In this document: piece by piece, positions 23,276-49,126 of the stretch
How the letters are laid out: every line of letters begins with the position of its first letter
Position numbering within the stretch: position 1 is the first letter of the stretch
Assembly (NCBI GenBank): GCA_003225175.1
Contig: QIBA01000039.1
Location: 62,001-126,000, forward strand
DNA: 64,000 bases
Source: Acidobacteriota bacterium
GTDB taxonomy: Bacteria; Acidobacteriota; Terriglobia; Terriglobales; Acidobacteriaceae
Reading direction: 5' to 3'
Position numbers and translations under genes: made by a program
Notes under the pieces: model-generated
Database searches by the model: none
Told to the model about the DNA's origin: nothing
The model's input: only the letters and a program-made list of their open reading frames with translations

Positions 23276-23907
23276 GCGGAAATCAATCCAGAGTCGCTGA
23301 ATTAGGTAACAGGAGGAGTAGCACGTTAGGTGAAGACTTTAGGGTAGGTACTAGACAATAGGCGATCGGCAACGGGCTAAAGACTGCATCCAGCCCTCAG
23401 CGATAGCCGATCCATGGAGATAGCTAATTTTTTGCCTATTGGCTATCGCTATTTGCATATTTTTACGTTTTCCACAACTTTTTTAGAGCAACGGATGAAA
23501 TTCCGTCGTTCTAAATGGGGACTCTAACCCACTTCGATTCAATCACCTGCCTAACGGGCATATCACCGAGCAACGGACACTTCCCCAACTGCTTTATTTT
23601 CTAGAGCTGATTCCCGAGATGGAACGACGGATTGTGGGAGTAGAACGTCTTGACCAGTCTCCTCGATTCGAAGTACCAATGCGGAATGGCTTCGATTTTG
23701 GTTCAAGGCCAGGAGCAAAGGATGGCATCAGTCGAGTTCTACAGGACTCGCCAGCAGCAAAGTGATATGGAATCAAAGGGCCAATCTCGCATCGGTCCAC
23801 CGTCGCACTCGCGCCTGAGGCCGCCGCATCGTCATCAGTCACCATTGAATGCAGTGAGAACGTGACTGTGGGCAAACCGATGAACCGCTAACAGGAAGGA
23901 GACAACG
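23276..23907. other. 632-base stretch with repeats but no convincing gene
   Basis: It holds a CAATAGGCGATCGGC repeat copy at 23352-23373 and its inverted partner (TTGCCTATTGGCTATCGC) at 23431-23449, able to pair as a large imperfect hairpin. An AT-rich tract follows at 23453-23485. Short frames on both strands (for example 23594-23875 minus) lack family features or a ribosome site. A small RNA is possible but unproven. The Shine-Dalgarno of the next gene (AAGGAG) lies just before 23908. Confidence 0.5.
23352..23449. repeat. Inverted pair of the CAATAGGCGATAGGC repeat family
   Basis: TAGACAATAGGCGATCGGCAAC (22 bases, written here as its two halves TAGACAATAGG and CGATCGGCAAC) lies at 23352-23373. 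A reverse-oriented copy, TTGCCTATTGGCTATCGC, lies at about 23432-23449. The first copy matches the 19131 repeat at most positions. The intervening 58 bases contain another CGATAGCCGAT. Confidence 0.6.
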
Positions 23908-24447
23908 ATGTCGGATGATCAGTTGGTTACCGAAAACGCGGAGAACCTCAACACCGAGGAAGACTACGAATCCTTGGCAAAGCTGGTGGGAGTGGATGCC
24001 GAGGCTGCGGCGCGTCTCGACGAGATGTCAGCCGAGGAGGTGGATGAATTTCTCGACGAACTAAATGACTGCGAGCTTTTCCTCGCGGAGATCGACCGCG
24101 CGAAAGCAAAGCTTGTTCGTCTTGCAAATCAAAGACGCAAGCTGAAGCTTGCGGACGAAGCGCCCCGATGCGAGCACATCAAGACAAATGGCGAGCAGTG
24201 TGGTTCACCCGCCATCAAGAGCACGCAACTCTGCTACTTCCATGGTGAAACGCGGAAACATCGCGAGTCTGAGGCTGCAGCCAAGGCGGCAGAACTGCCT
24301 GTGCTCGAAGACATGCAGAGCATCCAGCTTGCCGTGATGCGAGTTTGCGGACTGCTCGCCAGTAAAGCTATCGAAGAGAAGACTGCCCGCGTGCTGTTTG
24401 ACGGACTACGCCTCGCCCAGAAGACGCTCAAGGAGAATAATCTTTGA
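23908..24447 (+). CDS. CxxH zinc-finger-like protein beside a hexamer array
   Basis: A 179-residue protein with a strongly acidic helical N-terminal half (residues 1-75) and a compact putative zinc site, Cys88-X9-Cys98-X10-Cys109-X2-His112 (RCEHIKTNGEQCGSPA, then LCYFH), followed by a charged helix and a C-terminal helical segment. The Cys/His spacing resembles small DUF5763-like zinc motifs. I do not recognise a characterised homologue. It starts behind AAGGAG. Its stop codon shares bases with the first of eleven ATCCCC/GGGGAT hexamers downstream. A DNA- or RNA-binding role is inferred from the motif and the array. Confidence 0.75.
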   Translation: MSDDQLVTENAENLNTEEDYESLAKLVGVDAEAAARLDEMSAEEVDEFLDELNDCELFLAEIDRAKAKLVRLANQRRKLKLADEAPRCEHIKTNGEQCGSPAIKSTQLCYFHGETRKHRESEAAAKAAELPVLEDMQSIQLAVMRVCGLLASKAIEEKTARVLFDGLRLAQKTLKENNL

Positions 24448-24594
24448 TCCCCGAAGCGCAAACAGGATCCCCGCTGAATCCCCGGAGTGTTCGGGGATTA
24501 ATCCCCGGAGATCCCCGGAGCTTCGGGGATCAATCCCCAGGAGGCTGGGGATTGCTTGGGGATTCTGGCTTGTAAGTCCTTTGAACACGGGGAT
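24447..24594. repeat. Array of eleven ATCCCC/GGGGAT hexamers
   Basis: In 148 bases there are six ATCCCC (starting 24447, 24467, 24478, 24501, 24511, 24533) and five GGGGAT (starting 24493, 24525, 24547, 24558, 24589). Several form perfect palindromes such as CGGGGATTAATCCCCG (24492-24507). Spacing is irregular (10-31 bases). The array begins at the stop of the CxxH gene and ends 64 bases before the stop of the convergent lipid kinase gene. Confidence 0.85.
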
Positions 24595-24657
24595 TGATCG
24601 AAATTCTGAATTCCTCGATGCAGACACGAAGGGCGGGCCCAGGGCGCCGGATCCACG

Positions 24658-48731: not shown

Positions 48732-49124
48732 GAGGCAAGTGGACCGGATGGTCGCCCCGGCTTGCCGGGGAGGAAAGTCCGAACTCCGCAGAGCAGTGTG
48801 CCGGATAACGTCCGGGATTCCAGCGTCAAGGCTGGAAGACGGCCAGTGCCACAGAAAACATACCGCCCCGGCCTGCCGGGGTAAGGGTGAAAAGGTGCGG
48901 TAAGAGCGCACCGCCTGCGCAGCAATGTGCAGGGCATGGTAAACCCCACACGGAGCAAGACCAAATAGGGAGGGAGCCCCCGGCTTGCCGGGGACACGCA
49001 CCGGCTCGGCGCGTTACAACCTCCGGGTAGGTCGCACGAGCCTGGCAGCAATGTCAGGCCCAGAGGAATGACCGTCACTCCGTGCAAGCGGAGTACAGAA
49101 TTCGGCTTACAGGTCCACTTACTT
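48732..49124 (+). ncRNA. rnpB: RNase P RNA, bacterial type A
   Basis: The conserved blocks of the catalytic RNA of ribonuclease P are in order: GAGGAAAGTCCGAACTCC, ACAGAAAACATACCGC, AGGGTGAAAAGGTGCGGTAA with GAGCGCACCGC, CACACGGAGCAAGACCAAAT, GAATGACCGTC and ACAGAATTCGGCTTACAGG. The terminal P1 helix pairs AAGTGGACC (48737-48745) with GGTCCACTT (49112-49120). It processes tRNA 5' ends with the RnpA protein. Three near-identical hairpins CCCCGGCTTGCCGGGG at 48755, 48866 and 48978 (the middle copy with one base changed) are unusual. Confidence 0.95.
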
Positions 49125-49126
49125 TC

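Follow-up and report, generated by a model that had tools for sequence, protein, structure and literature searches.

In a probably uncultured soil acidobacterium, a gene for a zinc-finger-like protein runs directly into a dense array of one short word and its complement, which raises the question of whether gene and array belong together and, if so, whether the protein reads the word. The stretch under study, here called the window, is 64 kb long (C39:62001-126000 of a 5.73-Mb draft genome, G000), and the genus set comprises six genomes (G000, G054, G108, G120, G121 and G122). A hexamer count confirmed the claim of an earlier, sequence-only reading that eleven ATCCCC/GGGGAT words lie within 148 bp, beginning at the stop codon, whose final base is also the start of word one; 11 of the window's 24 copies are packed into 24447-24594, with no over-representation over the 64 kb as a whole (24 seen vs. 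26.1 expected). That reading also held such a density to be rare and described a 179-residue protein with a Cys-X9-Cys-X10-Cys-X2-His site. Both points stand: a 200-bp scan for repeated 6-mers found never more than 5 copies elsewhere in the window, and the protein is encoded by the open reading frame listed in Table 1.

Table 1. Parts of the gene-bearing element, in window coordinates
Feature	Position	Strand	Remarks
5' inverted repeat TAGAGCAACGGAT..ATTCCGTCGTTCTA	23484..23513	+	AGCAACGGA marks the left end of many type A solos too
Second 5' word GAGCAACGGA	23568..23577	+	82 bp from the first word; in 14 solos the distance is 72 bp
Promoter-like TTGACC-N18-TACCA	23650..23678	+	of the type TTG[AC][ACG]..TA[GC]CA; 5' of 11/17 genus relatives
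Zinc-finger-like protein gene	23908..24447	+	179 aa ORF; AAGGAG a few bases 5' of ATG
C-X9-C-X10-C-X2-H segment	24169..24243	+	residues 88-112; alignment of sequences picked with the motif
Array of eleven ATCCCC/GGGGAT words	24447..24594	+	order +++-++-+---
Conserved tail TAAGTCCTTTG	24573..24583	+	before the last word; common to solos of other words

The element seems to be larger than the gene and array first reported, and its parts suggest that it spans about 23484-24605 and includes the 5' inverted repeat, the promoter-like site and the tail. A sigma-70 consensus scan of the window element returned no promoter. Between the left flank and the element, at 23360-23470, lie more short repeated words (CGATAGCC / GGCTATCG), and the G120 sequence differs at the counterpart of this stretch.

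All four Cys/His ligand residues (C88-X9-C98-X10-C109-X2-H112 in the window protein) are invariant across 41 aligned sequences, although this invariance is partly by construction, because these relatives were picked by a regular expression for the Cys/His motif. The G120 and G054 gene orthologues show purifying selection (dN/dS 0.07 over 115 codons). The predicted structure of the window protein (mean pLDDT 88, pTM 0.54) runs from a long N-terminal helix through the zinc segment to three helices. Several longer relatives (L006, L035-L039 and L043) carry an N-terminal extension that is absent from the window protein and seemingly repeated in L038 and L039; in a second structure model, that of the longer G054 orthologue, the N-terminal part is of low confidence. 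Zinc sites of this sort often bind nucleic acids.

Neither family nor fold searches gave a significant match that would tell the protein's activity. No Pfam or NCBIfam model reached its curated cut-off with the window protein (zf-primase 16.0 bits vs. a cut-off of 28.8; HGG_STG 15.1 vs. 29), so that whole-protein scores do not support membership of the HGGxSTG or zf-primase zinc domains; among the 41 relatives there are weak matches at E ≤ 0.1 (zf-primase 17, DUF5763 14, HGG_STG 8). Scans of PHROGs, PADLOC and the 41-member family gave weak matches only; among five family proteins run against the PADLOC models of anti-phage defence systems, the window protein and L038 had no match at E ≤ 0.1 and the other three had partial matches (E ≥ 0.0039). 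The window protein matched no PDB sequence, Foldseek with its model found nothing at E ≤ 0.001 in the PDB and viral sets, and the VIA rows (208 chains) were all under Z 8 and look generic for helices. A search of PLSDB plasmids gave no match and a search of viral contigs no protein relative; the phage matches consist of a 35-residue zinc-site stretch in three Thermus phages (E 8e-3).

Sampling of 120 genomes of the family turned up relatives of the gene in 57, and all 6/6 genomes of the genus have them. Over the 200 bp that start at the stop codon, one 6-mer is present at least 4 times in 13/17 genus relatives vs. 26/449 background windows (5.8%), and at least 5 times in 9/17 vs. 7/449, the 17 being those of 18 known genus loci that the regular expression caught. 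Outside the genus, arrays follow 6/52 relatives, vs. 6.3% of 1649 background windows (a gene end was obtained for 69 of the 87 loci tested). The expectation that homologues would be followed by arrays thus held within the genus and fell to background level in other genera; likewise, gene and array belong together within the genus, yet the array is also common without the gene, so that both findings named beforehand as counting against the idea, homologues without an array and arrays without the gene, were in part made. The gene-array pairing is nevertheless a property of the genus relatives and not of one odd locus.

The hexamer itself is not conserved: ATCCCC in the window is replaced elsewhere by ATCCCAT, ATCCCAC, ATCTCAT or GGGGTTAACCCC, and the array word varies among subfamilies, to which we gave the type names A-E, and among species. 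Type A gene words are ATCCCC (window), ATCCCAT (G054), ATCCCAC/G (G120), ATCTCAT (G122) and ATGGGATATCCCATAGGGACC (G121). Type B words read GGSGT(T)AACSCC with GTGGAAA spacers; type C arrays follow L003 and L046; type D arrays consist of inverted CGCAAGATGTTGCG-like words; and type E is represented by gene L007 of G108, with the word GATGAGAT. In many gene-bearing loci the array starts at or overlaps the stop codon. At L051, G000 has a type D array with the tail and without the zinc-finger gene, although a search of that genome found no type D gene; the words of L051 are those that follow gene L040 in G120.

What is conserved across type A is the order and orientation of the words and the tail, TAAGTCCTTTAGAT..GGGATC. 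The tail pattern occurs at 47 places in five of the six genomes (G000 10, G120 7, G121 8, G122 4, G054 18 and G108 0), vs. 1 for a reversed-pattern control. Forty-six of these places were read, all save one in G121 (G121:C469); 3 have a gene upstream, and 43, in five genomes, have none. Most of these gene-less copies, or solos, have their own one-word array 5' of the tail, a few being degenerate (e.g. L109 and L116); L110 of G120 joins type B words to a type A tail, and L061 (= L090) of G000 carries the window's own word. The left end, TAG directly followed by AGCAACGGATTGC.., is common to many type A elements, fourteen of which have another AGCAACGGA 72 bp further along, and the left parts differ in the G121 and G122 elements and in some others. 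Type A genes and solos are found together in five genomes and are both absent from G108. Flanking genes follow no clear rule of orientation among the 36 cases with both flanks called (14 convergent, 13 tandem and 9 divergent).

Types B and E have solos as well, which brings the subfamilies with gene-less copies to at least three. A search of G108 for the B words with their spacer gave 47 matches at 20 places, namely gene L047, one chance match and 18 solos, 17 of which show the full word; B solo places number two to three each in G000, G120, G121 and G054, with none in G122. B solos occur in G054 without a B gene, and a B gene occurs in G122 without solos detectable by the pattern. The B gene words of G108 are GTTAAC, as are those of 13/16 G108 solos with at least two full words (the other three have GTAAC); in the other genomes, all nine B solos with a full word have GTAAC, likewise the three B genes read there. 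The E words form eight solos and the gene, in G108 only, the four matches outside it being one type A element and three chance matches. Four composite solos of G108 (L279 and L281-L283), which enter the E counts as well as the B counts, consist of one promoter-like site, an E array and then a B array. Two B solos retain pieces of the 5' part of the gene (L264, tblastn E 5e-10; L248, E 7e-8), and L264 also retains the gene's 3' end. We take this to mean that some solos at least probably arose from gene-bearing units that lost the coding sequence and kept promoter and array, because promoter-like sites are shared with the genes and gene remnants persist in these two. More generally, the gene-less copies look like derivatives of gene-bearing ones and not an unrelated repeat, since the two groups have tails, promoter-like sites and words in common and fragments of the gene survive in two B copies.

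The promoter-like sites are one-sided. We searched for TTG[AC][ACG]-N15-19-TA[GC]CA (typically TTGAC-N17-TAGCA), a pattern that fixes the hexamers, so that the hexamer conservation in a comparison of 16 hand-picked matches of equal length is by construction. A site reading into the array was found in 8/8 E solos (antisense 0/8) and in 17/22 B solos (antisense 1/22; B flank windows 1/269), of which one positive, L244, looks like a chance match; four of the five B misses are the E+B composites, whose site stands before the E array. Type A solos have it less often: 7/39 with the TA[GC]CA form (antisense 0/39) and 13/39 with CATCAT allowed (antisense 0/39), vs. 5/499 A flank windows, leaving 32/39 and 26/39, respectively, without a site. 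The genus genes have it in 11/17 cases in the sense direction and in 2 antisense. The spacers of these sites are alike in a gene and its solos: CGTCATAGCA closes the spacer in L007 and in most E solos, and the end TGTGGTAGCA is common to genes L002 and L045 and the B solos L232, L238 and L248.

Words are more alike within than between elements (identity 0.308 vs. 0.124 in 45 elements); 0/500 permutations were as high and none exceeded 0.145, values that are not probabilities from independent samples, as the elements share ancestry. Orthologous loci, paired by comparison of their flanks, show that one species may have a set of words unlike that of another. In L086 (G120), ATCCCA is followed by C7 G2 T1, vs. 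T11 C1 in its orthologue L112 (G054); in an orthologous trio the next letter is C6 G3 in L096 (G120), T7 A1 in L105 (G000) and T9 C3 in L122 (G054); and the window element and L035 of G120 are one locus with ATCCCC vs. ATCCCA. Such change is not the rule everywhere, because L115 (G000) and L127 (G054), at a common locus, both have ATCCCAT, and L095 (G000) and L101 (G120), which are 96% identical over 3 kb, have equal words. Other stretches compared between G000 and G120 show about 80% identity, far below the L095/L101 pair, whose likeness may reflect recent transfer or a binning error.

How well solos agree with their own genome's gene varies from genome to genome. The best match was to the own gene's word in 4/4 solos of G120, 3/3 of G122, 3/7 of G121 (the other four being a near tie with the similar G054 word), 7/17 of G054 and 2/10 of G000; over these 41 solos, 3 of 120 permutations of the genome labels, the true labelling included, reach the true mean. 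The simple proposal that every genome's solos carry its gene's word failed in G000 and G054.

We propose a gene/satellite family in which the zinc-finger protein of each subfamily would recognise the word of that subfamily in transcribed array RNA, a reading to which we give slightly less than an even chance. The window would be a gene-bearing member, with a promoter-like site, the zinc-finger gene, an array of words in both orientations and a tail; the gene-less members, dispersed in the genome, would have kept the array, often with a similar promoter-like site. The array would be transcribed both as the 3' end of the protein's mRNA and as short solo RNAs, and the protein, recognising the word of its own subfamily, would bind these RNAs, controlling its own mRNA and meeting the solo RNAs as decoys or effectors, so that the words would have to match the protein and change together with it. 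The one-sided promoter-like sites favour a transcribed array, in which word recognition is, we think, more likely to take place. A trans-acting reader is favoured by words that are uniform and change as a set; the conserved protein encoded beside the array would be its natural candidate, and the set-wise changes fit the earlier suggestion that the protein may bind the array. Csr/Rsm small RNAs such as CsrB and RsmZ, which hold many copies of one short protein-binding word and titrate CsrA, offer an analogy in manner of working only, that of an RNA with many copies of one word; here, the window protein has no CsrA-family match in Pfam or NCBIfam, the words stand in both orientations, and the array doubles as the 3' end of the gene that encodes the protein.

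A fixed RNA fold of the array drew no support from the RNA-structure tests. Array folding is strong and equal on both strands (mean z -3.8 sense and -4.1 antisense in 44 elements). G-T mispairs outnumber A-C at stem-closing, inner positions (30 vs. 14), a point in favour of RNA, and at outer positions (94 vs. 80), and are outnumbered in stem cores (16 vs. 27). Stack partners agree hardly more often than do other words within the same element (84/192, permutation mean 78.9), and B words show no covariation within or between words (49/112, expected 55.8; 42/84, expected 41.2). RNAalifold on 32 arrays gave 11 pairs, 6 of them with two-sided changes, a result that homogeneity of the words alone can produce. 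Rfam at the gathering score, over 25 sources, matched only rRNA, tRNA and RNase P and nothing in the arrays, Acido-1 included; a class A RNase P RNA gene lies at 48736-49125 of the window.

The word spacings of type A (10-11, 22, 31 and 41 bp) and type B (20-23 bp) look like helical DNA phasing. In the strongest alternative, which we regard as unlikely, the array would be a set of double-stranded binding sites, the gene unit an autonomous, or formerly autonomous, transposon-like element with subterminal arrays of such sites, the zinc-finger protein the factor that binds its ends, and the solos internally deleted copies that keep both ends. Apart from such spacing of words in both orientations (10-11, 22 and 31 bp, and 20-23 bp), it is favoured by the sharp left end of 14 type A elements (TAG directly followed by AGCAACGGAT), a right end soon after the tail, the gene remnants in two solos and one presence/absence difference between species. 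The last concerns the type A solo L053/L100 of G000, missing from the spacer that corresponds to its locus in G054 and G120; that spacer, however, holds other sequence and is replaced, not simply empty, with no clean join and no recognisable target duplication. At this place the G054 and G120 spacers (L227 and L228) have a GTAGAGACGCAGCATGCTGCGTCTCTAC palindrome that resembles GTAG-tagged REPs. For L061 of G000, no neighbouring counterpart of the right flank was found that could show an empty site, and the window element has no empty site in G054 because its left flank there runs into other sequence. The suggestion that the array may be a mobile element is partly supported, by dispersed copies and one presence/absence difference; neither a clean empty site nor a target duplication was seen. 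Ac/Ds, En/Spm and Tn7, which have subterminal arrays of hexamers or 22-bp sites, are similar in their short sites that point both ways close to an end and in their deletion derivatives; here, there is no transposase match, and no terminal inverted repeats or target duplications were recognised at the elements. Moreover, some solos are orthologous in two or three species and yet differ in word as a set, which would be unexpected of dead insertions, and the promoter-like sites nearly always point towards the array. Weighing the RNA form against this DNA form, we keep the former a little below even and the latter at unlikely because of the two-strand folding, the missing G-T bias in stem cores, the lack of covariation and the DNA-like spacing.

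A more improbable account is that the words are kept alike neutrally, by template switching or gene conversion, and that the neighbouring protein gene is unrelated. Homogeneity is indeed global within an element and not tied to pairing partners, and many solos mismatch the gene word of their own genome; a second dispersed word family (TTCACTGTT / TTCCCTGTT / TTCGCTGTT) also looks alike, and to our knowledge it has no gene. Against this, the arrays are tied to one gene family in the genus, the subfamilies each have their own gene and word with promoter-like sites reading into the arrays, and distant loci of one genome agree in word (G120 and G122). The second family occurs in both orientations at L061 769-986, a stretch with about 20 matches in G000 alone, and also to the right of the tails in L095, L099, L104, L108, L117 and L123.

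A system of the REP/RAYT type, in which a Y1 (HUH) tyrosine transposase encoded at another locus would mobilise the arrays, is very improbable: Y1 transposases are present in 6/6 genomes (52 matches), the 5' GTAGAGC.. palindrome resembles GTAG-tagged repeats, and PMC3733652 reports acidobacterial RAYT-like genes with inverted repeats on their flanks, but G108 lacks type A elements despite its 12 Y1 matches, the 30 Y1 loci fetched show the tail in 0/30 and AGCAACGGA in 2/30, and the array-adjoining protein has no Y1 match, Y1_Tnp being absent from the Pfam matches listed at E ≤ 0.1 for the window protein and 40 relatives.

The proposed gene/satellite family nonetheless shares with REP/REPIN and RAYT (TnpA-REP) a gene beside a short palindromic repeat that is also dispersed in the genome (PMC3116915 and PMC3733652). 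It differs from those systems in that the protein is zinc-finger-like and without a Y1 match, each repeat unit comprises an entire array of 6-12-nt words together with a tail and often a promoter-like site, there are at most about 20 places per genome, and species differ in their sets of words. One short word also makes up the intergenic arrays known as TAACTGA repeats, for which a binding regulator was proposed (PMC4679880), and as staphylococcal STAR elements (PMC3532100), going by the accessible portions of both; the TAACTGA repeats are one word in direct repeats, mostly before start codons, and the portion of PMC4679880 available names no linked gene family. The Acido RNAs (PMC2864571, partly accessible) are among the nearest literature, with no Rfam match in the arrays searched. 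In the open-access papers searched, no such pairing of a zinc-finger gene with a word array was found described.

Protein family, repeat and arrangement fit none of the systems compared. Tentatively, and with the balance somewhat against us, we suggest a protein/satellite system unrelated to transposases, in which every zinc-finger protein has a recognition word of its own that evolves, and transcribed arrays of that word, derived from the gene by loss of its coding part, stay at the same loci in different species and follow the specificity of the protein; functional evidence could still place it under the gene-plus-dispersed-repeat kind of REP/RAYT. Taken together, the observations point to an undescribed protein-repeat partnership in uncultured soil Acidobacteria. 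If true, it would add a second kind of gene-satellite partnership to REP/RAYT and would provide a natural series of protein/word pairs for following changes of specificity, with orthologous proteins beside different words and orthologous loci with a switched word, and the co-evolution of a binding protein with its many sites would become directly testable.
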